64,000 nt of DNA from a virus. This document shows positions 21,232 to 63,661 of the stretch, piece by piece. How positions within the stretch are numbered: position 1 is the stretch's first letter; every line of letters starts with the position of its first letter. Below the pieces are notes generated by a model, which was not told the DNA's origin, did not search any database, and saw only the letters and a program-made list of their open reading frames with translations. The stretch is from the IMG/VR virus record IMGVR_UViG_3300021960_000023, positions 1 to 64,000 of that record. One strand, given 5' to 3'. The position numbers and the translations under genes are program-made.

Positions 21232-21888
21232 ATGAAATTAATTTCAGAGTATTTAGATAGTAATATAACAAATTACATTACCGAAGATAAAAAAGGTAAT
21301 AAAAGCCACGTCATAGAAGGCGTGTTTATGCAGGCCGATACGAAAAATCGAAATGGCCGTGTATATGAAAAAAAGATTCTAGAGTCAGCTGTTAACAAAT
21401 ATGTTAAAGAGCAGGTGACAACTGGTAGGGCTGTTGGTGAGTTAAATCATCCAGAAGGACCTACTATTAACCTAGATAAAGTTTCACATAAGATTACCGA
21501 ACTCAAATGGGACGGAAGTAATGTTATTGGAAAGGCATCAATATTGAAAACACCTATGGGTCAGATCGTCGAAGGTCTACTTGAAGGTGGAGTTAAGCTT
21601 GGTGTATCAAGTCGTGGTATGGGAAGCCTTGTGCAAAAGAATGGTGCTAGTTACGTGAATGGTGACTTTATGTTATCAACAGTAGATATCGTTCAAGACC
21701 CTTCCGCTCCGGAGGCATTTGTCAACGGAATTATGGAAGGTAAAGAATGGGTATGGGATAACGGTATATTAGTAGCGCAAGACATTGAATTAATTGAGAC
21801 TGAAATAAAGACAGCAAAGAATATCAACTCTTCGGATGTTGAGATCAGAGCCTTTAAGAATTTCCTCTCGAAACTTGTAAATAAATAA
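21232..21888 (+). CDS. 21: Prohead core protease gp21
   Basis: The 218-aa product has the gp21 serine-protease core: GVFMQADTKNRNGRVY, GRAVGELNHPEGPTINLDKV (the likely catalytic His in NHP) and LGVSSRGMGSL (the likely catalytic Ser), then STVDIVQDPSAPEAFV. gp21 cleaves scaffold, gp23 and capsid-targeted proteins after L/I-x-E. It lies between the core genes as in T4. It starts after GGAG at 21221-21224. Confidence 0.92.
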   Translation: MKLISEYLDSNITNYITEDKKGNKSHVIEGVFMQADTKNRNGRVYEKKILESAVNKYVKEQVTTGRAVGELNHPEGPTINLDKVSHKITELKWDGSNVIGKASILKTPMGQIVEGLLEGGVKLGVSSRGMGSLVQKNGASYVNGDFMLSTVDIVQDPSAPEAFVNGIMEGKEWVWDNGILVAQDIELIETEIKTAKNINSSDVEIRAFKNFLSKLVNK

Positions 21889-21906: not shown

Positions 21907-23031
21907 ATGTCAGAAGACGTAAAAAACGCCGAAGACGTATCAATTGACGAGCAAGCTTCTAGCGAAGAGCAACTTAACGATGAAAATCAAGTAATCGAAG
22001 ATGTTGTTGAGAGCGAGGAAGCTGTTGAAGAAACTGCAGAAGTAGAATTAGAAGAAGCTAAAGCTAAAAAAGAGGATGATCTTGAAGAAGATGCTCCTAA
22101 GGCTATAGCAACTCCTAAAACTAAAGCTGGTGTTATTCAAGCAGCCGTTGATATGCTTAAAGGTGTCAAAAAAGAAGACGCACAAAAACTATTTGCGAAA
22201 ATGGCAGCGATCTCTGATGACAAAGATCTAGACGAAGAAGAAGAAACTGGTTCACCAGTAGCTTCTAAAAAGAATGAATTAAAAGCTAAAGCGAAAGTAG
22301 AAGCTCTTGATTTTGACGAAGATCTAGACACAATCATCAAAGAGGAAGCTACGCTTTCAGATGGATTCCGTGAAAAAGCAAGCGCTATTGTAGAGGCAGT
22401 ACTAACAAGTAAATTAGCCGAATCAGTAGAGCGTTTAGAAGCAGAATACGTGCAAAACCTAGAAGAAGAGGTTTCTGAAATTCAAAATTCATTAGTAGAG
22501 AAAGTAGATTCATACTTAAACTACGTAGTGGAAAATTGGATGAAAGAAAACGAAGTTGCAGTAAGTACAGGTCTTAGGACTGAAATTGCTGAAGACTTTA
22601 TGACTTCTTTACAATCAGTGTTCAAAGAACATTATATTGAAATTCCAGAAGGCAAAGAAAACTTGTTAGATGAACTATCTGACCAAGTAGCTGAGCTAGA
22701 GGAATCTCTAAACAAAACCACAGAAGATAACATCAAACTACACGAAGCTAATCAGTCACATGAGAAAGTTTCTATAGTAAGAGAAGCATCTTCAGGGCTT
22801 GCGGAAACAGATGCTGAGAAATTTGCTAAGTTAGTGGAAGATGTAGAGTTTGATAACAAAGAAACTTTCGAACAGAAAGTTGCTACTATCAAGCAATCAT
22901 TTTTCAAAGGCGAAGTAACTGAATCAGTTGATGAAGTAAACAGCATGGCAGGCGAAGACTCAGCGGAAGTTGAGCCAGTAAGCGAAGCTATGTCTAGATA
23001 CACTCAGGCTATAACAAAATTTAATAAATAA
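21907..23031 (+). CDS. 22: Prohead core scaffolding protein gp22
   Basis: The 374-aa product is very acidic and coiled-coil rich. The N-terminal third is Glu/Asp-repeat-like (SIDEQASSEEQLNDENQVIE). The C-terminal end VSEAMSRYTQAITKFNK is the usual gp22 terminus. The ribosome site is a strong GAGGAGG. It assembles the prohead core around which gp23 polymerises and is then digested by gp21; V-S-E and L-x-E sites are plentiful. Confidence 0.9.
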   Translation: MSEDVKNAEDVSIDEQASSEEQLNDENQVIEDVVESEEAVEETAEVELEEAKAKKEDDLEEDAPKAIATPKTKAGVIQAAVDMLKGVKKEDAQKLFAKMAAISDDKDLDEEEETGSPVASKKNELKAKAKVEALDFDEDLDTIIKEEATLSDGFREKASAIVEAVLTSKLAESVERLEAEYVQNLEEEVSEIQNSLVEKVDSYLNYVVENWMKENEVAVSTGLRTEIAEDFMTSLQSVFKEHYIEIPEGKENLLDELSDQVAELEESLNKTTEDNIKLHEANQSHEKVSIVREASSGLAETDAEKFAKLVEDVEFDNKETFEQKVATIKQSFFKGEVTESVDEVNSMAGEDSAEVEPVSEAMSRYTQAITKFNK

Positions 23032-23051: not shown

Positions 23052-24392
23052 ATGTTTAACGCAGATTCACAATTAATGGAAAAATGGAGCCCAGTATTAG
23101 AACATACAGGCGCGCCAGAAATCCAAGACAGATATAAAAAAGCTGTCACAGCAAGGCTTCTTGAAAACCAAGAAATTGCATTACGTGAAGAACAAGCCCA
23201 GGTACAAGGTAACTTTATTTCAGAAGCAGCAGCAGCTAATAACATTGGCACAGGCTCAGCTCCTAACAATATTGGTACTTTCGACCCTGTTCTTATTTCT
23301 TTAGTTCGTAGAGCTATGCCTAACCTCATCGCTTATGATATCGCTGGCGTTCAGCCAATGACTGGTCCAACAGGACTTATCTTCGCAATGAAATCTAAGT
23401 ACGCAACACAATCAGGAACAGAAGCATTCTTTAATGAAGCTGATACTGATTTCTCAGGTACTGGTACTCATCAAGCAGATCCAACTGGTCTAGCTGGTGT
23501 AGTAGATGCAGACACAGATGGATCTATCGCAGATACAGCTGACGTAGTCTCAACTTTCGGTTCAGGTATTGCTACCTCAGCTGCGGAAAGACTAGGCGTT
23601 GGTGCATCAGGCGACGGTTCATTCGGTGAAATGGCTTTCACAATCGAGAAAGCTACTGTAACTGCTAAGTCAAGAGCTTTAAAAGCTGAGTACACAATGG
23701 AACTAGCACAAGATCTTAAAGCTATCCACGGTTTGGATGCAGAAGGCGAATTAGCTAACATCTTATCAGCTGAAATCCTAGCGGAAATCAACAGAGAAGT
23801 AGTTAGATCAGTTCTTAAAACTGCTAAAATCGGTGCTTTACAATCTTCAACAGCCGTATCCGGTATCTTTGATGTCAACACTGACTCAGACGGTAGATGG
23901 ATGGTTGAGAGATTCAAAGGTCTTATCATGCAACTAGAAAGAGAAGCAAACGTAATTGCTAAAGAAACAAGACGTGGCAAAGGTAACTTTGTACTTTGTT
24001 CTTCAGACGTAGCTTCAGCTCTAGCAGCTGCTGGTCTTTTAGACTACACTCCTGCATTAAGTGCAAACTTAAACGTTGACGATACTGGTAATACATTTGC
24101 TGGTGTTTTAAATGGCAGAATGAAAGTTTATATAGATCCATATGCGACTGTAGACTTTGCATGTGTTGGTTATAGAGGTTCAAATCCATACGACGCAGGA
24201 CTATTCTATTGTCCATACGTTCCTTTAACTATGGTTAAAGCAGTTGGTGAGAATGACTTCCAACCAAGAATGGGATTCAAAACAAGGTACGGCATGATTG
24301 CTAATCCTTTCGTAGCTATTGACGGAACTATCGGTGCAGATAGATCTAACCAATACTTCAGAATCTTCAGAGTTGACGACATAATGGTGTAA
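23052..24392 (+). CDS. 23: Major capsid protein gp23
   Basis: The 446-aa product carries the gp23 signatures (FDPVLISLVRRAMPNLIAYD, GVQPMTGPTGLIFAM) and the C-terminal MGFKTRYGMIANPF. A likely maturation cut is after E58 in N-F-I-S-E/A-A-A-A, close to the T4 cut at residue 65. It forms the hexamers of the mature head. A strong terminator follows. Confidence 0.96.
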   Translation: MFNADSQLMEKWSPVLEHTGAPEIQDRYKKAVTARLLENQEIALREEQAQVQGNFISEAAAANNIGTGSAPNNIGTFDPVLISLVRRAMPNLIAYDIAGVQPMTGPTGLIFAMKSKYATQSGTEAFFNEADTDFSGTGTHQADPTGLAGVVDADTDGSIADTADVVSTFGSGIATSAAERLGVGASGDGSFGEMAFTIEKATVTAKSRALKAEYTMELAQDLKAIHGLDAEGELANILSAEILAEINREVVRSVLKTAKIGALQSSTAVSGIFDVNTDSDGRWMVERFKGLIMQLEREANVIAKETRRGKGNFVLCSSDVASALAAAGLLDYTPALSANLNVDDTGNTFAGVLNGRMKVYIDPYATVDFACVGYRGSNPYDAGLFYCPYVPLTMVKAVGENDFQPRMGFKTRYGMIANPFVAIDGTIGADRSNQYFRIFRVDDIMV

Positions 24393-54956: not shown

Positions 54957-56345
54957 ATGAATTCATTTAAATCTTTTACAGTTGAACCTATTCTTATTAA
55001 AGAAGTTTCTGGGTTGTCGGCAACAGAGTTAGACAAACCAAACGGACAAACTGGCGAACATCGTTTAGATATCCTAAAGAAACTTATAAAAGGTAAAACA
55101 CCTTTGGAATTAAAGAAAGGCGGAACTACGGTCGTTACTGATATAGAAGATGCATTAGCTAAACTTGATGTTTTCCTTAAGCAACCTTCTAACTTAGTAT
55201 TCCAAACAAAAAATGGTCCAATTAAACTAACACAATTAGCAAAGAGTAAAGTCTTTGGCGGTGGTGTTGGTGGAGCAGGAGCTGGTACGGCAGACACAGA
55301 AAGAAATGAATCTCATAATGCATGTATGATGAAAGCTATGGTAGATAACCCAGGGCACGATTTATCATACTATGATGACGAAGTAATAGCTCAGGCTTAC
55401 AAAGATAATGGCACATCAAATGTTAGTGCTAATACAGACAAGATATTAGAAACTCCAGAAAATTGGTGGGCATCGTCATACTATATAACAAAATACCTAG
55501 TTAGTAAAAAGCTAATTCATAAGAACATGGAATTCCATCGTGGATCAAAAGAGATGATAAAGATATATGCTATGAAAAATCTAGCATTTAAAAATTCAGG
55601 CTTTGCCCCACTAAAAGATGATAAGTGGAATCCAGGCGATGTATGGGCAATACAAAAAGGATTTAATTTAGATAAGTTAAATACTATGTCAATACACGGT
55701 TTTAATAAATCTTTAATTGCGGCATTTACAAAAAGAGAAATAGTAGGTATATCACTAAAACTAGTTAAGAATGATTCTGTTCCTTTTAGTGTAAATAATT
55801 ATAAACAACCACCGGAAGTACTCCTACACAAGATAGCTTCTATGGGGTTTGAATCTGGAAGAGGATCGTTTTGGTCTTCAAAAGGTTCTTTTATTAAAAC
55901 TACGTCATTACAATTAGACTTAAAAGATAACACTCCTGGTGGAACTATTAAGGCTGAAGTAAAAGGTAAAACATCTAGAGGTGGTGGAATTAGCTGGGGC
56001 ATTATGCAAGATATAGTCCAACATGAAGCAGGTAAAAAATTACCTAAACATACTGGTGGTATAACTAAATCAGCTAAAAATATCGCAATGGGTAAACCAA
56101 AAGATGTACAAGCTATGTACAAAATGTTTAATGAATTTTATAAGAACGTAAGCTATGAAGCTTTTGTAGCTGAACTAGAAGAAAAAGATTGGCAATGGAT
56201 TAGTGCTAAACTAGCTTCTTTAACTTTACTTTATACTATAAACAAAGCTGGTGGCAAGAAATCTAATGCCATCGTAACAAGAATGATTAACTACGCCGGA
56301 TCAACGACTGCTGAAGGCGGAGTATATGTTAAATTAGGAAAATAA
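54957..56345 (+). CDS. Capsid-targeted-leader protein of unknown function (462 aa)
   Basis: The first residues MNSFKSFTVEPILIKEVSG look like a T4 capsid-targeting leader with an I-K-E/V site. The middle has ESHNACMMKAMVDNPGHD and NPGDVWAIQKGFNLDKLNTM, followed by REIVGISLKLVKN. This WNPGDVW ... ISLK pair might be a nuclease-like core, but that is only a motif guess. It starts the packaged-protein cassette and is followed directly by the KWDG gene. Confidence 0.55.
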   Translation: MNSFKSFTVEPILIKEVSGLSATELDKPNGQTGEHRLDILKKLIKGKTPLELKKGGTTVVTDIEDALAKLDVFLKQPSNLVFQTKNGPIKLTQLAKSKVFGGGVGGAGAGTADTERNESHNACMMKAMVDNPGHDLSYYDDEVIAQAYKDNGTSNVSANTDKILETPENWWASSYYITKYLVSKKLIHKNMEFHRGSKEMIKIYAMKNLAFKNSGFAPLKDDKWNPGDVWAIQKGFNLDKLNTMSIHGFNKSLIAAFTKREIVGISLKLVKNDSVPFSVNNYKQPPEVLLHKIASMGFESGRGSFWSSKGSFIKTTSLQLDLKDNTPGGTIKAEVKGKTSRGGGISWGIMQDIVQHEAGKKLPKHTGGITKSAKNIAMGKPKDVQAMYKMFNEFYKNVSYEAFVAELEEKDWQWISAKLASLTLLYTINKAGGKKSNAIVTRMINYAGSTTAEGGVYVKLGK

Positions 56346-57584
56346 ATGATATCATTTAAAAACCATAACCTTACAGAAGCCAAAAACACTCACATGACTC
56401 ATATAGAGGATTTAGTGTTGGATGGCGGAGTTAAGGGAGCCCGCCAAGCTATCAACGCTCTACGCAGTATGAGAGATATGTTGAGTGGTCACGCAAAATC
56501 ACCTGTAGACGTGACCGTAAAATGGGACGGGGCTCCCGCCGTATTCGCAGGTGAAGATCCAAGAGATGGATCGTTCTTCGTAGCTAAAAAAGGAATCTTT
56601 AATGCAGATCCTAAAGTATATAAAAGCCACGAAGATATAAAGGCTGATACCTCAGGTGATCTATCCAAAAAGCTTATTATGGCTTTTGATGGATTAAAGG
56701 ACTTAGGTATCAAGGGTGTAATACAAGGTGACTTTATGTTTGATAAATCGGACCTTAAAGGTGAAACGATTAACGGACAAAAGATGATTACCTTTCACCC
56801 AAACACTATTGTTTATGCAGTACCATATGGATCTAAATTAGAGAAAGATATATCTAAAGCAGATGTTGGTATTGTATGGCATACATCTTATAAAGGTGGA
56901 ACATTCGAAACTATGCAAGCTTCTTTTGGCGGTGACATAGTTGGTAAATTAAAAAAGAGTTCTAAGGTATGGCAGGTAAATGCAGACCTAGAAGAGCTAT
57001 CAGGTAAAGCTACATTTACCGCAGCAGACAATATGAAAGTAACTAAATTGTTATCTGAAGCTGGTAAACTATTCCAAAAGATATCTTCTGGGGTATTAAA
57101 AGAATTAGAAAACAATAAAGAATTAAATTTAGTTATTAATGTTTATAATAATAGTATGGTGAGAAAAGGCCAAAGAATTAAAGACGAGAAGAAACACGCT
57201 AAGGGATTAATCCAGTTTGTTACTGATCGATACGCTAAACAAATCGATAAGCGTAGTTCACAGAAAGGAAAAGATATACAAATAGGTAAAAGAGATGAAT
57301 TATTATCGTTTTTCTCTACTAGTAACTTAAAAAACTTAGAAAATGTCTTTAAATTACAGAATTATCTTGTAGACAGTAAATTAATTATTATAAATAAACT
57401 TAACAAACTAAATAAAATCGGAACGTTTGTTAAAACAACATCCGGATTTAAAGTAACCAACCCAGAAGGTTTTGTTGCTATAGATCGTATGGAAGGTGGA
57501 GCAGTTAAGCTTGTTGATAGATTGGAATTTTCTGCCAACAACTTTAGCAAAGATATTATAAAAGGTTGGGATAATCCTAACTAA
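56346..57584 (+). CDS. KWDG nucleotidyltransferase-superfamily protein (DUF6267-like, ligase-like)
   Basis: The 412-aa product has a ligase-type lysine motif VTVKWDGAPAVFAG with K59, a motif III-like GVIQGDFMFD near residue 125, and a C-terminal NPEGFVAIDR then AVKLVDRLEFS near 372-395, which mirror motif IV (EGxV) and motif V (K388). So it may be a DNA or RNA ligase or capping-like enzyme. MISFKNHNLTEAKN is a leader with L-T-E/A. It follows the 54957 gene without a gap. Confidence 0.62.
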   Translation: MISFKNHNLTEAKNTHMTHIEDLVLDGGVKGARQAINALRSMRDMLSGHAKSPVDVTVKWDGAPAVFAGEDPRDGSFFVAKKGIFNADPKVYKSHEDIKADTSGDLSKKLIMAFDGLKDLGIKGVIQGDFMFDKSDLKGETINGQKMITFHPNTIVYAVPYGSKLEKDISKADVGIVWHTSYKGGTFETMQASFGGDIVGKLKKSSKVWQVNADLEELSGKATFTAADNMKVTKLLSEAGKLFQKISSGVLKELENNKELNLVINVYNNSMVRKGQRIKDEKKHAKGLIQFVTDRYAKQIDKRSSQKGKDIQIGKRDELLSFFSTSNLKNLENVFKLQNYLVDSKLIIINKLNKLNKIGTFVKTTSGFKVTNPEGFVAIDRMEGGAVKLVDRLEFSANNFSKDIIKGWDNPN

Positions 57585-57602
57585 AATGGGAATTCAAAGG
57601 AT

Positions 57603-59069
57603 ATGCAAATTAAATCATTTAGTGATTACTTAGTCGAAGACACAAAAGAAGTCACATTCGTGTTCGGGCGTTTTAATCCGCCTACTATTGGTCATGAGAA
57701 ACTATTTGACCAAACAAAAAAACTAGCCAGATCTGGCACATATCGTATATACGCATCTAAATCTGTAGATGCTAAAAAGAATCCATTACAATTTAAAGAC
57801 AAAGTTAAGTTTTTACGTAAGATGTTTCCTAAACATGCTCGCCAAGTTATGGCTGATAAGGATGTAAGAAACGTTTTAGATATTGCTACCAAATTATACG
57901 ATCAAGGATTTACAAAAGCAAGTATGGTAGCAGGTTCAGATAGAGTAAAAGAGTTTGAAGTATTACTTAACAAATATAATGGTGTTAAGTCTAGACATGG
58001 TTTTTATGAATTCCAAGGTCTGATTAAAGTTTTAAGCGCAGGCGAGCGCGACCCGGACGCAGAAGGTATATCAGGTATGTCAGCATCTAAAATGCGACAA
58101 GCAGCAGTAGATGGTAACCTACCATTATTTGCAAAAGGATTACCAGCAAGATTTTATCCAACAGATTTATATAATGCTGTTAGAGCAGGTATGGGTTTAA
58201 AATCAGAAGGATTTAGACCACACGTTGAATTAGAAACTGTATCAGATATCAGAGAAGATTACGTGGAAGGAAAAATATTTAGAATTGGTACTATGATTCG
58301 TATGAAAGAATCAGGTGAAGTAGGTAAAGTGGTTATAAGAGGAACTAATTATATTCTTGCAGAATTCAACGGAAGAAAAAGACGTTGTTGGCTAGATTCA
58401 ATTCAAGAAGAAGGCGGTGCTGGAGATCATGGCACAGGCAAGCTTACCAAGAAATACAAAAAAGATACTCCGAAGATGGAGCTAAAAGATTCACCTTATA
58501 ATAAAATAGTTAAAGACAATACGATCTTATCCTTCGGTAAGAAGAAAGATAAGAAAGAAGGTTATAACGACGGTGATTCTTCCCGTGGAGATAAAAATTA
58601 CGATTCATTTAAGACTGGAAAAAAATCTACAGATTCTAAAAGAAGAGCTCAGCAGAATAAGCAAAAGGATATGAAAGATGATAATCCAGATGCATACAAA
58701 GATTTACCAGGTGATAAGAAAGCAAGAAAGAAAGGTTTACCACAATCTAAGTTTACAAGTAAATATAAACAGATGTATGGTGAAAACTTTGAAATGACTT
58801 TTGAAGATTTTATTATAGAGAATAAAGGTCAGGTAAAAACAGCTTTAAAAAAGAAATCAAAAGCAACAGGTGTTTCAATGTCTATACTAAATAAAGTATT
58901 TGATAGAGGATATGCTGCATGGAAAACAGGTCATAAACCAGGAACAACTCCAGTACAATGGGGATTGGCAAGAGTTAACTCTTTCTTAGTTGGCGGTCCA
59001 GTTTGGAAAAAGTTTGATAGCGATCAAGCGGAACTAGCAAGAAAGGGCGGATTTAGCCCAGGAAAATAA
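57603..59069 (+). CDS. HxGH-type adenylyltransferase with DUF5824-like C-terminus
   Basis: Residues 18-35 contain VFGRFNPPTIGHEKLFDQ (GRFNPPTxGH), and near 156-166 ISGMSASKMRQA, the two motifs of cytidylyl/adenylyltransferases such as NadM. The central basic part is likely flexible. The C-terminal end (KTALKKKSKATGVSMSILNK, GYAAWKTGHKPGTTPVQWGL) matches DUF5824. The leader MQIKSFSDYLVEDTKE has an L-V-E/D cut site. It may act on NAD precursors or on RNA ends in the new host cell. Confidence 0.72.
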   Translation: MQIKSFSDYLVEDTKEVTFVFGRFNPPTIGHEKLFDQTKKLARSGTYRIYASKSVDAKKNPLQFKDKVKFLRKMFPKHARQVMADKDVRNVLDIATKLYDQGFTKASMVAGSDRVKEFEVLLNKYNGVKSRHGFYEFQGLIKVLSAGERDPDAEGISGMSASKMRQAAVDGNLPLFAKGLPARFYPTDLYNAVRAGMGLKSEGFRPHVELETVSDIREDYVEGKIFRIGTMIRMKESGEVGKVVIRGTNYILAEFNGRKRRCWLDSIQEEGGAGDHGTGKLTKKYKKDTPKMELKDSPYNKIVKDNTILSFGKKKDKKEGYNDGDSSRGDKNYDSFKTGKKSTDSKRRAQQNKQKDMKDDNPDAYKDLPGDKKARKKGLPQSKFTSKYKQMYGENFEMTFEDFIIENKGQVKTALKKKSKATGVSMSILNKVFDRGYAAWKTGHKPGTTPVQWGLARVNSFLVGGPVWKKFDSDQAELARKGGFSPGK

Positions 59070-59080
59070 AAAGGAATAAA

Positions 59081-59539
59081 ATGAAATCATTTAAAGAATT
59101 AAGAGAAAATAATACTAAGTTTAAGTCATCTAATCCTACGAAAGATGTTGCAGGATATCCTGAAGCAAAGGGCGTAGTTGGAAAAATTATTAAGTTTAGT
59201 GATAGAGATGGCAGAGGAGTTGGCATCGGAACAACAGTCTTAGATAATGGTAAACCTGCAAAAAATGGAAGTAGAGACGAAGTTATTAAAGTAATTAAAA
59301 AACATGATATTAAAGGATTTAGATTTGGTGGAGACTTTATGAGAAAAGAAGTTAACGCAAACAAAAACCTAGAATATCCAACTTCTCTTGCTAAGAAAAC
59401 CGGACTAGTTAAATCAATAGATGGTTATAATGCATCTAAATTTTTACTAGACGTAATTAAAAAATTTCCAAAAACGGAAACAAAAGGTAAAGAATATGTG
59501 GATTACGATAATGTAATGATCCACTTCATCGAGGTATAA
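59081..59539 (+). CDS. Capsid-targeted-leader protein, unknown (152 aa)
   Basis: MKSFKELRENNTKFK is a leader of the M-K-x-F-K-E type with L-R-E/N. The rest (VVGKIIKFSDRDGRGVGIGT, GFRFGGDFMRKEVN) is basic and beta-like, with no recognised family. It sits 11 bases after the adenylyltransferase gene in the cassette. Confidence 0.6.
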   Translation: MKSFKELRENNTKFKSSNPTKDVAGYPEAKGVVGKIIKFSDRDGRGVGIGTTVLDNGKPAKNGSRDEVIKVIKKHDIKGFRFGGDFMRKEVNANKNLEYPTSLAKKTGLVKSIDGYNASKFLLDVIKKFPKTETKGKEYVDYDNVMIHFIEV

Positions 59540-59540
59540 A

Positions 59541-60557
59541 ATGAAATTTAAAGAATTAAGAGACGTAGTAGAAAAAATGTCAGGTTCTAAATTAACAGGA
59601 CAAGAGATATCTGTTTGGTACAGAAAGAACAAAGACGTAGATAAAGCAGCTAAGAAAGACAAGAATATTAAAAAAGCTGTTGAGATAGCATTAGATCACG
59701 GCGGAGCTATGAACTTTGCTATTAAGAAGATCGAAAAGATTAAAAGAGGTTTAGCTGACAATCCTCATGTAGCTAAAGCACTATCTTTTGCAAACTTTGG
59801 TGAAGACAAAGATACTATTTCAGAAGGTACATGGGCAGTTCCTGATTCATATGAGAATTTACAAAAACTACAATTTAATTTCTTAAATAAAAAAACCCCT
59901 GGTACTAAAGCCAATGCTAAACTACTCGCTAGAAAAATATACGGCATATTCGGGGATGATTCTTTCTTTGATGATTTACTAAGAATAGAAACCGATCCAG
60001 ACCCTAAAGTCGATCTAAGAGATATAATTGTTAAGCATCTAGAAGATTGGAACATGAAATTTAAAAAGGGTGGAGTCTATGTAATCACCCACGCACCTAA
60101 AGACTGGTGGGAAAAAGAAGGAGTAGGTGAATCAGCTAAGAAAAGAAAATCTGGTAATATTAAACCAACAGGTCTTGGTTCTCCTGTAAGAGGTAAACTT
60201 ATGCCTGTAACGGAAGGTGTTAAAAAAGTAGATTCATTGGATAAAGCAGAAAGAATGCTTAACTATAAGATTAAAGAACTACAATATAAAACAGCATTAA
60301 AAACGTTTAATGAATATGATGCAGATCCAGAAGTAAAGAAAGAAGCTAAAGGAGCTACAGGATTAAACAATGCAGCTTTAGCAAAAAGAGTTCCAGAAAG
60401 ATTTAAAGGGATAGATCAAAAAACAGCCCAAAGAGTAGCAGATGCAGTTAAGCCAAAAGGTATGATTAGCACTAAACTCTATATGGAGTTAGGTGATCTT
60501 TGGGATAAAAAGAATACAAAAGGGTTTGAAGCTCTTCTTAAGAAACATAAGGTATAA
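59541..60557 (+). CDS. Capsid-targeted-leader protein, unknown (338 aa)
   Basis: MKFKELRDVVEKMSGSKL opens the protein, and FGEDKDTISEGTWAVPDS has an I-S-E/G site near residue 96, so a longer leader might be removed. Central DDLLRIETDPDPKVDLRDII and VYVITHAPKDWWEKEGVG are conserved-looking but unrecognised. The basic helical C-terminus has LNNAALAKRVPERFKG. Function unknown. Confidence 0.58.
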   Translation: MKFKELRDVVEKMSGSKLTGQEISVWYRKNKDVDKAAKKDKNIKKAVEIALDHGGAMNFAIKKIEKIKRGLADNPHVAKALSFANFGEDKDTISEGTWAVPDSYENLQKLQFNFLNKKTPGTKANAKLLARKIYGIFGDDSFFDDLLRIETDPDPKVDLRDIIVKHLEDWNMKFKKGGVYVITHAPKDWWEKEGVGESAKKRKSGNIKPTGLGSPVRGKLMPVTEGVKKVDSLDKAERMLNYKIKELQYKTALKTFNEYDADPEVKKEAKGATGLNNAALAKRVPERFKGIDQKTAQRVADAVKPKGMISTKLYMELGDLWDKKNTKGFEALLKKHKV

Positions 60558-60559
60558 AC

Positions 60560-61075
60560 ATGAGAAAATATAATCCAACAAATTCAAAAATTACAGTAGA
60601 CGAAAGCGGTAGAGTAAAATTTAAATATCCGCAAGAAGATATATCTGAAGCTAAGATGAAAGATCTTCTTCGTAAACATAAAAGAGAATTACAAAAAGCA
60701 CAAAGAAGCGGTAATTTAGAATTATCTAAAAAAGCAGAAGAAGATCTAATGCAATGGGCAATGGATGCTGGAGAAATTAAAACTGACGATCCAGATGATT
60801 TTAGCGATTGGTTAGATGATAACCTTGACGATATAATTAAAGGTAGAATTAAAGAAGATGTAGATTTATCAGAAGCTAAATTTAATTCAAAGAAAGAATT
60901 ATCAGATGTTGCAAAGCTAGATAAACTACTAGAGAATGCATACAAAGGTATGGGTAAATTACAACATGGTAAGTCAGAATACCTAAGAAAATTAAATGAT
61001 GGTATTGTAGAAGCTAGAAGAGCTCTAGATACTTACGTTGATGCTATTAAGAGTGGAAAGTTAGACGACAAATGA
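60560..61075 (+). CDS. Putative internal virion or core protein with two SEA sites (171 aa)
   Basis: YPQEDISEAKMKDLLRKHKR and REDVDLSEA-like residues (actual KEDVDLSEAKFNSKKEL) give two I/L-S-E/A sites like that in gp23. The middle is a charged helix (KAQRSGNLELSKKAEEDLMQ) and the end a coiled coil. It is the type of protein that gp21 would trim. Function unknown. Confidence 0.58.
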   Translation: MRKYNPTNSKITVDESGRVKFKYPQEDISEAKMKDLLRKHKRELQKAQRSGNLELSKKAEEDLMQWAMDAGEIKTDDPDDFSDWLDDNLDDIIKGRIKEDVDLSEAKFNSKKELSDVAKLDKLLENAYKGMGKLQHGKSEYLRKLNDGIVEARRALDTYVDAIKSGKLDDK

Positions 61076-61404
61076 AAAAGTTTAAAGCATTTAAGAAAGA
61101 AGAAGATTCACCTTGTTGGCCTGGATATAAGCAGGTTGGAACTAAGATGAAGAATGGTAAAGAAGTTCCTAACTGTGTTCCAATTGGGGAAGATTTAGAC
61201 GAAGCTCCATTAGTAATGAATGATATGGATATGGTAAAAGCTATATTAAAAAAGGTCGAAGATGATATAGCAAAGCTTAGTTTAAGGAAGAAAATAGAAC
61301 AAGCCTGGCCGAAGATTCAGATACTAGCTAAAATGGCTGGTTATAAAGTAACCAAAACTGCACAAGAAAAAGGCAGAATATTTAGGTCGGACATTAAGAA
61401 ATAA
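61072..61404 (+). CDS. Capsid-targeted-leader protein with CWPGYKQVGTK motif (110 aa)
   Basis: MKKFKAFKKEEDSPCWPGYK, QVGTKMKNGKEVPNCVP and GEDLDEAPLV give the C-W-x-G-Y...NGKxVPNCVP module often seen in phage proteins linked to heads and proteases, plus two cleavage sites (I-G-E, L-D-E). Two cysteines could bind metal. It overlaps the previous gene by 4 bases (ATGA). Confidence 0.58.
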   Translation: MKKFKAFKKEEDSPCWPGYKQVGTKMKNGKEVPNCVPIGEDLDEAPLVMNDMDMVKAILKKVEDDIAKLSLRKKIEQAWPKIQILAKMAGYKVTKTAQEKGRIFRSDIKK

Positions 61405-61778
61405 TGTATACTTTTAAAGAAAAGGATTTTGGAATGTATGAAGGTAAAACTTATCCACTAGAAACTCCTATGTTAGAAGGTGGACCAGAGCCAGAGTTAA
61501 ATAAACCAAAGCGAAGTGGACCAGATGATCCTAAAAAATTCGTGGTTTATGTAAAAGACCCAAAGACAGGAAACGTTAGAAAAATAAATTTTGGTAATGA
61601 AAAAGATTTTGATGGCGGTAACGCTAAGATAAATAATAAAGATAGAGCTAAGGCTTTCTCAGATAGACATAATTGTCCAGCTAAGAAAGATAAACTATCT
61701 CCAGGTTATTGGTCTTGTAACTTACCGAGATATGCTAAAGAGCTAGGACTTACAGGTGGTGGAAATTACTTTTGGTAA
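61404..61778 (+). CDS. KPxR...RHNC...YWSC protein (124 aa)
   Basis: The product has NKPKRSGPDDPKKFVVYVKD, PKTGNVRKINFGNEKD, DRHNCPAKKDKLSPGYWSCN, a module I know from phage capsid-linked and structural genes. It contains a C-x10-C pair likely to bind metal. MYTFKEKDFGMYEGK is a leader-like start. Its start shares a base with the previous stop. Confidence 0.6.
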   Translation: MYTFKEKDFGMYEGKTYPLETPMLEGGPEPELNKPKRSGPDDPKKFVVYVKDPKTGNVRKINFGNEKDFDGGNAKINNKDRAKAFSDRHNCPAKKDKLSPGYWSCNLPRYAKELGLTGGGNYFW

Positions 61779-62031
61779 ACCATACGAAGACTCTAGTAAC
61801 ATAAGAGAATTCGATGTTAAACGGGATGATGCCGAATATGTATGGCATAAGGATCCTGAGAACAGAGAATGTGAAATATTGGAAGGGGATGGATGGCAAT
61901 TCCAATACGAAAATGCACTACCTTGGGCTATTCACCCAGGGATGATTTTTGAAATAAGAGGAAAGAATCATATGCATAGGTTAATTAAAGGAAAGAATAA
62001 CTTAAAAATTAGGATAAAAAAACATGAGTAG
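61756..62031 (+). CDS. Small cupin-like beta-barrel protein (91 aa)
   Basis: From GTG 61756 the product reads VEITFGKPYEDSSNIREF, then EILEGDGWQFQYENALPW and HMHRLIKGKNNLKIRIKKHE. The ExLxGxGWQ...LP...HRLIKG pattern resembles a one-domain cupin. It overlaps both neighbours. The GTG start is the only nearby option; GTG 61759 is the alternative. Confidence 0.5.
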   Translation: MVEITFGKPYEDSSNIREFDVKRDDAEYVWHKDPENRECEILEGDGWQFQYENALPWAIHPGMIFEIRGKNHMHRLIKGKNNLKIRIKKHE

Positions 62032-62341
62032 AGAAACTCAGGCGACCAAACTTTCGCGTATAGAGGCGGATGCTACCGCAAGATTTGATCGTATAGAAAA
62101 CAAAATGGACAAACTGTCCGAAGCAATCATCGCGCTTGCGAGGGCAGAAGAAAAGATTTTAACTCTTACATCTTTCAGTAAACAACAATCTGAACAGATT
62201 CAAAGGGTTATAAATAGGGTTGATAGTATAGAAGAACTGGTTACATCCAATGCTTCAACTATCAATATTATTAACAAGATATTCTGGATTATCATGGCCT
62301 CAGCGGCCACTGTGATTACTGGAATGCTTATATTGCAATAG
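62024..62341 (+). CDS. Coiled-coil tail-anchored protein (XhlA-like, possible lysis or ejection factor)
   Basis: The 105-aa product has a long coiled coil (RFDRIENKMDKLSEAIIALA, IQRVINRVDSIEELVTSNAS) and one C-terminal membrane helix (IIMASAATVITGMLILQ). This layout matches XhlA-type holin partners. No holin is otherwise recognised near the SleB gene. An internal TATAAATA at 62209-62216 could drive the next gene. Confidence 0.5.
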   Translation: MSRETQATKLSRIEADATARFDRIENKMDKLSEAIIALARAEEKILTLTSFSKQQSEQIQRVINRVDSIEELVTSNASTINIINKIFWIIMASAATVITGMLILQ

Positions 62342-62353
62342 AGGAAAATATAA

Positions 62354-63193
62354 ATGAATAATTTATGGAACGATGACCTAACTCAAAGCATTGCTAGCAC
62401 AGTAAACGATGTACTAGAAGGTAAAAAGAGTTATAAAAAAGAAGAAATGGATCCAAAAGATCATGTCAAATCTGGCAAAGATGGTGGATTCGATGTTGTA
62501 GATGCTAATGGCGACGTAGTTAAATCTTTCGGTAAGAAAGAAGAAGCTGAAGGTTATGCTATTAAAAACCACGACAAATTAATGTCTGCTAAAAACGAAG
62601 TAGCAGAACCAGAACCAAAAGGCGAGAAGGAATTCAAAGCTAAGCATAAGGTTAAAAAGTCTGGCGACAAAGAAGACGGTACTAACATGAAAGAAGAGAT
62701 TACTATCTCTATTGATTACATGCATAAGATCGACGAAAAGCTTAAGCCAGGAAAAGGTAAAGAAACAATCGATGTAGATTACATTGGTGATAAAGGTCTT
62801 ACCAAAAAACTAGAAAGCAAGTTTAAAGTAAAGATTAAACAAACTGGTTCTACAACAGCTGATATAACAGGCGAGAAGAAAAATATTCTATCTTTCATGA
62901 AATCAGATGCTTATATGATGGATGATGGAGATATCGAAGAACTATTTCCAGAACTATTAGAATCTGTTTCTCCAGAGATGGCAGACGAACTTCCAGCAGC
63001 TGGTAAAGAAACTGGTTACATGGACGAAGAAGAAAAAGATCTTTCTCCAGCTCAGAAAAAATATCAAGCGTTTTTTAAGAAAGCTCTTAAGAAATTTGAC
63101 GCTGAATCACCAGCTGATTTAGACGACGAAAAGAAAAAAGAATTCTTTAACTACATTGATAAAAATTATAAAGGCGACAACGAAAGCGACTAA
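62354..63193 (+). CDS. Putative prohead-core or internal head protein (279 aa)
   Basis: NLWNDDLTQSIASTVNDVLE opens the protein, then GGFDVVDANGDVVKSFGKKE with EGYAIKNHDKLMSA, a basic stretch, and a C-terminal LSPAQKKYQAFFKKALKKFD. Acidic and Lys-rich composition resembles internal head or core proteins. It lies in the late cassette. Exact role unknown. Confidence 0.55.
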   Translation: MNNLWNDDLTQSIASTVNDVLEGKKSYKKEEMDPKDHVKSGKDGGFDVVDANGDVVKSFGKKEEAEGYAIKNHDKLMSAKNEVAEPEPKGEKEFKAKHKVKKSGDKEDGTNMKEEITISIDYMHKIDEKLKPGKGKETIDVDYIGDKGLTKKLESKFKVKIKQTGSTTADITGEKKNILSFMKSDAYMMDDGDIEELFPELLESVSPEMADELPAAGKETGYMDEEEKDLSPAQKKYQAFFKKALKKFDAESPADLDDEKKKEFFNYIDKNYKGDNESD

Positions 63194-63205
63194 ACAGGAA
63201 AAAAA

Positions 63206-63661
63206 ATGAAAACATTTAAAGAAATGAAACAATACATTCAGGTACATGAAAGGTTTAAAGCTAAACCGCCTATGTCAGGTATGCACTTAACAGGGTTTGA
63301 GGGCAAATTAAAACTAAATCAACAATCTGGGCACGAAGATAATCATAGTGATGCAGTTATTAAGGACTTCAAAGCTGCGGTTAAAATAGTAGATAAACAT
63401 CTTAAAAAATTAGGAATGAAATCTGTTCCTGAAGTTTTTGTTGGACCTAAAGACGTTGCAAAAGAAAAAGGCGTTAAGGTTGGAGCATTTGCTAGTGATT
63501 TTGCTATTAGCGTATATCCAGGATTTCGAGATGGCCCTAAATTGCCATCTGGTAAAAAAGATTCTGAAATTAATTTAGACCCAATGGTAGCTGAATTAGG
63601 CAAGCTAAAATCCTTCGTCAACTTTCCAAGAAGCGACTGGAGCGATAACTGGGACAAATAA
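63206..63661 (+). CDS. Capsid-targeted-leader protein, unknown (151 aa)
   Basis: MKTFKEMKQYIQVHERFKAK resembles the T4 internal protein leader MKTYQEFIAEA. The rest (DSEINLDPMVAELGKLKSFV, FPRSDWSDNWDK) is unrecognised and partly basic. There is no clear L/I-x-E site near the start, so cleavage is uncertain. Confidence 0.58.
   Translation: MKTFKEMKQYIQVHERFKAKPPMSGMHLTGFEGKLKLNQQSGHEDNHSDAVIKDFKAAVKIVDKHLKKLGMKSVPEVFVGPKDVAKEKGVKVGAFASDFAISVYPGFRDGPKLPSGKKDSEINLDPMVAELGKLKSFVNFPRSDWSDNWDK

Follow-up and report, generated by a model that had tools for sequence, protein, structure and literature searches.

Leaders of the T4 capsid-targeting type on a cassette of candidate virion-internal proteins in a marine T4-like myovirus

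A run of genes starting at position 54957 of the IMG/VR virus record IMGVR_UViG_3300021960_000023 raises the question of why several of its products begin with a short leader recalling that of the internal proteins (IPs) of phage T4, and of whether these products travel inside the virion. The stretch analysed, hereafter the window, covers the initial 64 kb of viral contig G000 (130,478 bp), which comes from a T4-like myovirus. As argued below, this cassette most probably encodes virion-internal proteins of a T4-like marine myovirus, packaged by means of a T4-type capsid-targeting sequence (CTS). Within this interpretation, packaging is well supported, trimming of the leader by the prohead protease gp21 is supported by the predicted cleavage sites, and ejection into the host along with the DNA would follow by analogy with T4.

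The leaders of the cassette and the T4 capsid-targeting sequence

The eight open reading frames (ORFs) starting at 54957, 56346, 57603, 59081, 59541, 61072, 61404 and 63206, which a first-pass annotation of the window had singled out, are all found in place with the N-termini reported, and the leaders in the cassette are real. The general form M-K-x-F-K-E attributed to them fits some and is not shared exactly by all, and the L/I-x-E site said to end several of them is clear in 54957, 56346, 57603 and 59081 and weak or absent in 61072 and 63206. The T4 leader given there for comparison, MKTYQEFIAEA, is indeed that of IPII and IPIII. Using a rule modelled on T4 with residue classes of our own choice, namely M-x1-4-[FY]-[KRQSN] together with [LIVMF]-x-E within residues 4-20, a leader was found in 9 of the 15 genes between 54957 and 64700 vs. 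3 of the 148 elsewhere in the contig (Fisher p=5.5e-9); with shuffled N-termini, the rule was satisfied by a mean of 0.37 genes and at most 2 in 500 shuffles. A stricter rule calling for two aromatics three residues apart retained 5/15 cassette genes vs. 7/148 others (p=0.002).

In T4 IPIII, the first ten residues are enough for packaging, residues 4 and 7 governing targeting and residues 8 and 10 the processing by gp21, which cleaves after L/I-x-E (PMC9026906). In the cassette, aromatics at positions 4 and 7 are clear in 54957, 56346, 57603 and 61072, position 7 being non-aromatic in 59081, 61404 and 63206. For scoring, a family-weighted matrix was built from 39 families of the window's relatives (plus strand only, heavier pseudocounts, trained without T4), seeded with a consensus that we picked after seeing the leaders; an earlier version, derived from single-linkage clusters, had taken in spurious reverse-strand ORFs and, being over-fitted, was replaced. 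The matrix peaks at F4, an aromatic at 7 (Y/H/F), R/L/I at 8 and E10, i.e. in the register of the T4 IPIII CTS, and it ranks T4 IPI, IPII and IPIII 2nd, 4th and 5th among 267 T4 ORFs, the chance of three given proteins all falling in the top five being about 3 per million by our own arithmetic. As its offsets miss leaders one residue shorter (MKFKELR, MRFRQF), the resulting counts are conservative. The best score among all ORFs of the contig belongs to 59081, and the relatives of 59541 at the same place show the form MKFKELRE-. As a side observation, the top leader score of the T4 ORFs, above IPI-III, is that of gp61.1 (gene 61.1, L117:18966-19130, minus strand), a hypothetical protein of 54 amino acids (aa) starting MKTFKEFIKEDMV, which may be an unrecognised T4 internal protein.

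The leader and its site are also conserved within families. In three cassette families, 77, 92 and 94% of the relatives have a leader with [LIVMF]xE at the junction with the body, vs. 6-15% when segments are drawn at random from these proteins; for the DUF6267 family encoded at 56346, this corresponds to 77% of 61 relatives vs. a 6% control, and for the family of 57603 to 92% of 49 relatives vs. 15%. In the family of the 462-aa protein encoded at 54957, conservation of the Glu of the site reaches at least 90% across 30 relatives, despite varying leader length. The site is followed mostly by A/S/G in two families, the cytidylyltransferases related to 57603 having E/S/D/N there, and the predicted gp21 sites of the major capsid protein gp23 read FISE/A in this phage and LLTE/A in cyanophage S-CREM2. 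In AlphaFold2 (AF2) models of the 54957 and 56346 proteins, residues 1-15 are disordered ahead of well-folded bodies, the predicted local distance difference test (pLDDT) score of the 56346 body being about 90. Separately, one DUF6267 clade (L128, L135, L146, L149, L201, L240) keeps F4 and F7 (MFSFKGF) with a changed cleavage site (VTKG, ITKE, LTRD), as if its members were packaged without trimming or cut by other rules.

A leader shared by unrelated proteins and present in virions

In 105 IMG/VR loci collected via two of the cassette enzymes, many unrelated proteins share the leader at their start. For a sampling independent of the bodies, the pattern MK[ST]FK[DEHQ][YF][LIF]xEA was reverse-translated and scanned over viral contigs, where it gave at least 120 matching stretches, vs. 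0 for a permuted control made of the same codons in another order. Among the matches listed, 80 of 86, from 80 loci, open ORFs of at least 50 aa; in the median case, five codons separate the leader from a preceding in-frame stop. These ORFs fall into at least 44 body clusters without detectable similarity. Following Pfam and PHROGs, these bodies include adenylate kinase, RNA ligase, DUF6267, HAD acid phosphatase, glucosaminidase, lytic transglycolase, lysozyme, GNAT and cytidyltransferase. A T4 gp21-type protease (Peptidase_S77) is encoded in 10 of the 19 longest leader contigs, several of which are partial.

Phage gene families expand by duplication, and the leaders could accordingly be the mark of a recent duplication of one gene, or else coincidental. 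With so many bodies lacking detectable similarity, a motif bound to the start and a permuted control at zero, this explanation is very improbable; synonymous codon choice at K2, F4 and K5, which equals that of the bodies, speaks against duplication as well. Since leader codons are used at body frequencies, it is the peptide that is conserved and not the DNA, which also argues against a DNA or RNA signal.

Whether leader-bearing proteins reach the virion can be approached from published mass spectrometry (MS) of related phages. In S-CREM2 virions, 52 proteins were identified (PMC10665884). Proteins with a matrix score >5 were taken as leader-positive; as this cut-off and the split into structural and non-structural proteins are our own, several cut-offs and a test on all proteins were run in addition. 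Among non-structural proteins, 6 of 14 detected are leader-positive vs. 2 of 167 undetected (p=1.7e-6), and among all proteins 8 of 50 vs. 2 of 167 (p=1.5e-4). A rank test on the non-structural set, free of any cut-off, gave an area under the curve of 0.68 (p=0.013), a modest value because detected proteins without leader also exist. The leader carriers in these virions comprise the S-adenosylmethionine (SAM) hydrolase gp6 (MKDFDSFLEEF; S-AdoMet_lyase), the kinase gp14 (MKRFDAFLTEE) and the cytidylyltransferase gp154 (MKNFSSFLTEA), the very three proteins called regulatory by the authors of that study (PMC10665884). Another S-CREM2 virion protein, gp12 (L113:7704-10313), annotated as a Cas9-like nuclease and without a Pfam match, shows a leader-like RFASFMAEA at residues 18-26.

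The cytidylyltransferase was detected by MS in virions as S-CREM2 gp154, S-SZBM1_140 and S-SM1 T4-GC190, and as nicotinamide mononucleotide (NMN) adenylyltransferase (NMNAT) in S-SCSM1 (ORF91); in S-SZBM1, its N-terminus reads MRFRQFIIEA. The authors of the S-CREM2 and S-SCSM1 reports left open whether this enzyme is carried in the particle or carried over. If such detections were a mere carry-over of abundant proteins, the leader could be an unrelated N-terminal signal, for instance for translation, membrane or replisome targeting, and M-K-x-F-K-x-[YF]-[LI] could indeed form an amphipathic stretch. Carry-over, however, would not favour leader-bearing proteins over the 167 undetected in S-CREM2; the register and the L/I-x-E/A site fit the T4 CTS, and the matrix recovers the T4 IPs. 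An unrelated signal is therefore considered unlikely.

Only marginally less unlikely is the explanation in which the leader serves solely as a core-binding tag, the proteins being prohead assembly factors degraded or expelled at maturation and hence undelivered. The T4 core proteins gp67 and gp68 act in this way and IPIII influences head assembly (PMC9026906), and several leaders of the window lack a clear cleavage site. Many leader bodies are nevertheless enzymes, unlikely builders of a scaffold, and leader-bearing proteins occur in finished virions, two observations that speak against this explanation.

The first-pass annotation had held that the same enzymes lacking the leader in related phages would speak against packaging. 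Such a case exists, namely the DUF6267 protein of S-SZBM1 (MAKNTHLEH...), and, in keeping with the packaging model, this leaderless protein does not appear in the virion list of that phage either. Other observations do weigh against packaging through the leader. In S-SZBM1, proteins 191 and 192 (S-SZBM1_191 and _192) have perfect leaders and are not among the 30 proteins detected by MS, and S-SZBM1_136 and _139 were detected in virions without having one. Some virion detections rest on 1-5 peptides, and all virion MS comes from related phages. In the cassette itself, 61072 and 63206 are without a good cleavage site and 62354 is without an F-K-type leader. Besides, a scan for NATAAATA found no clear late promoter before the cassette, only CATAAATA 13 nucleotides (nt) upstream of 54957, the head genes mostly having NATAAATA some 22-69 nt upstream; late promoters were consequently not used as support. 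The capsid-targeting reading put forward in the first-pass annotation is upheld by the T4 register, the recovery of the T4 IPs, the enrichment in S-CREM2 virions, the virion cytidylyltransferases, the diversity of bodies and the co-occurring gp21-type protease.

Under packaging by a T4-type CTS, each internal protein of the cassette would bear a leader of 9-16 residues, whose aromatics near positions 4 and 7 would tether the freshly synthesised protein to the prohead's scaffold core, as in T4. Judging from the conserved site, gp21 would then cut after L/I-x-E, freeing the mature protein in the head, from which it would exit with the DNA at infection, as T4 internal proteins do. The cargo would include a cytidylyl/NMN-adenylyltransferase-like protein and a DUF6267 ligase-like nucleotidyltransferase, with a HAD-type phosphatase encoded elsewhere in the contig. 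Its most likely targets, ahead of any phage gene expression, would be pools of nucleotides and nicotinamide adenine dinucleotide (NAD) together with the ends of nucleic acids, or else the defences of the host.

Cargo enzymes and comparison with known systems

By its motifs, the 57603 protein is a cytidylyl/NMN-adenylyltransferase-like enzyme: it matches PF01467 (9.5e-5), PF19141 and a PHROG cytidyltransferase profile (2e-76), and has the (H/T)xGH nucleotide-binding motif, with GRFNPPTIGH and ISGMSASKMR read in the sequence. The 56346 protein matches PF19782 (DUF6267; E=1.1e-100), for which residues K59, D61, G62, Q127, D129, E374, G375, K388, V390 and R392 are invariant over 43 relatives down to 27% identity. 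These residues form the motifs KWDG, QGD, PEG and KLVDR, i.e. K-x-D-G, Q-x-D, E-G and K-x-V-x-R, with a helical insertion between motifs. The order KxDG...EG...K, which we take to correspond to ligase motifs I, III, IV and V, fits the covalent nucleotidyltransferase superfamily of ligases and capping enzymes. The resemblance of the DUF6267 model to ligases in Foldseek is only suggestive, the top two hits being DNA ligases (E=0.15-0.18, low TM-score) and more ligases, along with guanylyltransferases, appearing among the 50 best. Searches of PDB by sequence gave nothing significant for DUF6267 and 57603, no PDB fold match was obtained for the 462-aa protein, and tblastn found no relative of the 59081 protein among annotated phages. 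As the DUF6267 and cytidylyltransferase domains are found in one PHROG profile (phrog_455), they probably act together. At the start of infection, such cargo would rebuild nucleotide or NAD pools or seal nucleic-acid ends, and it could possibly counter defences that deplete NAD or cut nucleic acids.

The closest parallel is T4 itself, whose three IPs are small and basic and are reported to inhibit GmrSD restriction (PMC12373910). The cassette proteins resemble IPI (MKTFKEF...), IPII and IPIII in leader length, F/Y4, aromatic 7, I/L8 and E10/A11, in the T4-type head genes of the genome, including a gp21-like protease, and in being clustered accessory genes with diverse bodies. They differ in that about nine genes stand in one cassette with others elsewhere, in bodies of up to 488 aa, several of them enzymes, and in a more variable leader with shifts of -1 to +2 and F for Y at position 4. 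The system exceeds that of T4 in the number and size of its proteins and in their enzymatic content, and it occurs widely among environmental T4-like phages. Alt, a large ADP-ribosyltransferase packaged and ejected by T4, provides a precedent for enzyme cargo in the T4 head, although its leader misses the matrix (rank 137/267) and no Alt-like body was identified in the cassette. The inner-body (ejection) proteins of phiKZ and SPN3US are similarly numerous and packaged via N-terminal propeptides cleaved by a protease; contrary to the T4-type leaders of 9-16 residues found here, those propeptides mostly exceed 100 residues and have another sequence (PMC5694885). Finally, S-CREM2 gp154, S-SZBM1_140, S-SM1 T4-GC190 and S-SCSM1 ORF91 are homologous to the 57603 enzyme; in the accessible portions of the S-CREM2 and S-SCSM1 reports, where contamination is left open, no mention of a leader was found, whereas the leader described here supplies a mechanism. 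The open literature searched held no description of a CTS in cyanophages or pelagiphages, nor of this expanded system.

Going beyond this locus, and with less assurance than for the cassette, we favour the idea that T4-like phages of natural waters share an injectome readable from sequence, in which a common CTS can make almost any gene product virion cargo and dozens of enzyme families (nucleotide and NAD synthesis, nucleic-acid ligases, SAM lyase, kinases, phosphatases, cell-wall hydrolases, acetyltransferases) would enter the host together with the DNA, so as to reprogramme or disarm it before transcription starts. Phage-injected proteins are largely unknown outside T4 and phiKZ-like phages, and with such a leader, genome sequences would suffice to inventory the internal proteins of the abundant oceanic T4-like phages. 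The leader also provides a mechanism by which cytidylyltransferase/NMNAT, SAM lyase and kinases, repeatedly and doubtfully reported from cyanophage virions, could get there. Its carriers form a set of candidates for early effectors and anti-defence proteins, and its many natural variants can serve as CTSs for loading cargo into T4-like heads.

Genomic setting and further observations

The window follows the T4 order, with terminase, tail, portal, gp67-like, gp21-like, gp22-like and gp23 genes, all assigned by order and sequence except for gp23, which was assigned by profile (Table 1). The cassette is flanked by uvsX/gp41 helicase genes and nrdA, and a homologous one is present at the same place in S-SZBM1, S-SSM5, HTVC008M and Melnitz; in S-CREM2, the cytidylyltransferase group directly precedes the primase and nrdA genes. 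Among annotated phages, the cassette enzymes have their nearest relatives in phage C48C1, methylophage Melnitz and Pelagibacter phage HTVC008M, and next in hundreds of T4-like cyanophages.

Table 1. Coordinates of the cassette genes, of the presumed packaging and processing partners, and of further leader carriers (slashes mark predicted or possible cuts)
Feature	Position	Strand	Leader or basis of assignment
462-aa protein, unknown fold, phrog_1462	54957..56345	+	Leader MNSFKSFTVEPILIKE coding 54957-55004; predicted cut IKE/V
DUF6267 protein, ligase-like nucleotidyltransferase motifs	56346..57584	+	Leader MISFKNHNLTE coding 56346-56378; predicted cut LTE/A
Cytidylyltransferase/NMNAT-like enzyme, C-terminal DUF5824	57603..59069	+	Leader MQIKSFSDYLVE coding 57603-57638; predicted cut LVE/D
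152-aa unknown protein	59081..59539	+	Leader MKSFKELRE coding 59081-59107; N-terminus MKSFKELRE/N
338-aa unknown protein	59541..60557	+	Leader MKFKELRDVVE coding 59541-59573; N-terminus MKFKELRDVVE/K
171-aa protein, same gene run	60560..61075	+	At most marginal leader MRKYNPTNSK; weak assignment
110-aa protein	61072..61404	+	N-terminus MKKFKAFKKEED; leader MKKFKAFKKE coding 61072-61101; aromatics 4 and 7 kept, cleavage motif weak
124-aa protein, phrog_7595 body	61404..61778	+	Leader MYTFKEKDFGMYE/G coding 61404-61442
151-aa unknown protein	63206..63661	+	Leader MKTFKEMKQYIQVHE/R coding 63206-63250; without clean L/I-x-E site
T4 gp21-like prohead protease, presumed processing enzyme	21232..21888	+	Synteny (between gp67-like gene and gp22) and resemblance; own N-terminus YITE/D
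gp22-like scaffold core protein, presumed docking partner of leaders	21907..23031	+	Position and Glu-rich composition; role as expected from T4
gp23 major capsid protein	23052..24392	+	PF07068 E=2e-145; predicted gp21 site NFISE/AAAANN read from sequence
Further leader carrier outside the studied interval	contig 64635		Leader MRRTFQEYIKQWED
HAD-type phosphatase, further carrier outside the studied interval	contig 78272		Perfect leader MINFKTYLSE/A

Within the cassette, the product of 62354-63193 has, in place of an F-K leader, another conserved start, MNNLWNDDLTQSIASTVNDVLEGK, ending VLE/G, with relatives reading MKFNDDITMSIASTVRDVLEGK; this N-terminal stretch is perhaps a second type of cleavable leader. 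The protein encoded at 61072-61404 contains CWPGYKQVGTKMKNGKEVPNCVP, and several PHROG families, very unequal in length, have stretches that match its first ~45 residues. Further along contig G000, in a region with few plausible ORFs around them, genes at 84691-85854 and 86616-88463 appear by eye to encode a FecR-type protein and a CHASE2-type sensor, which are unusual in a phage.

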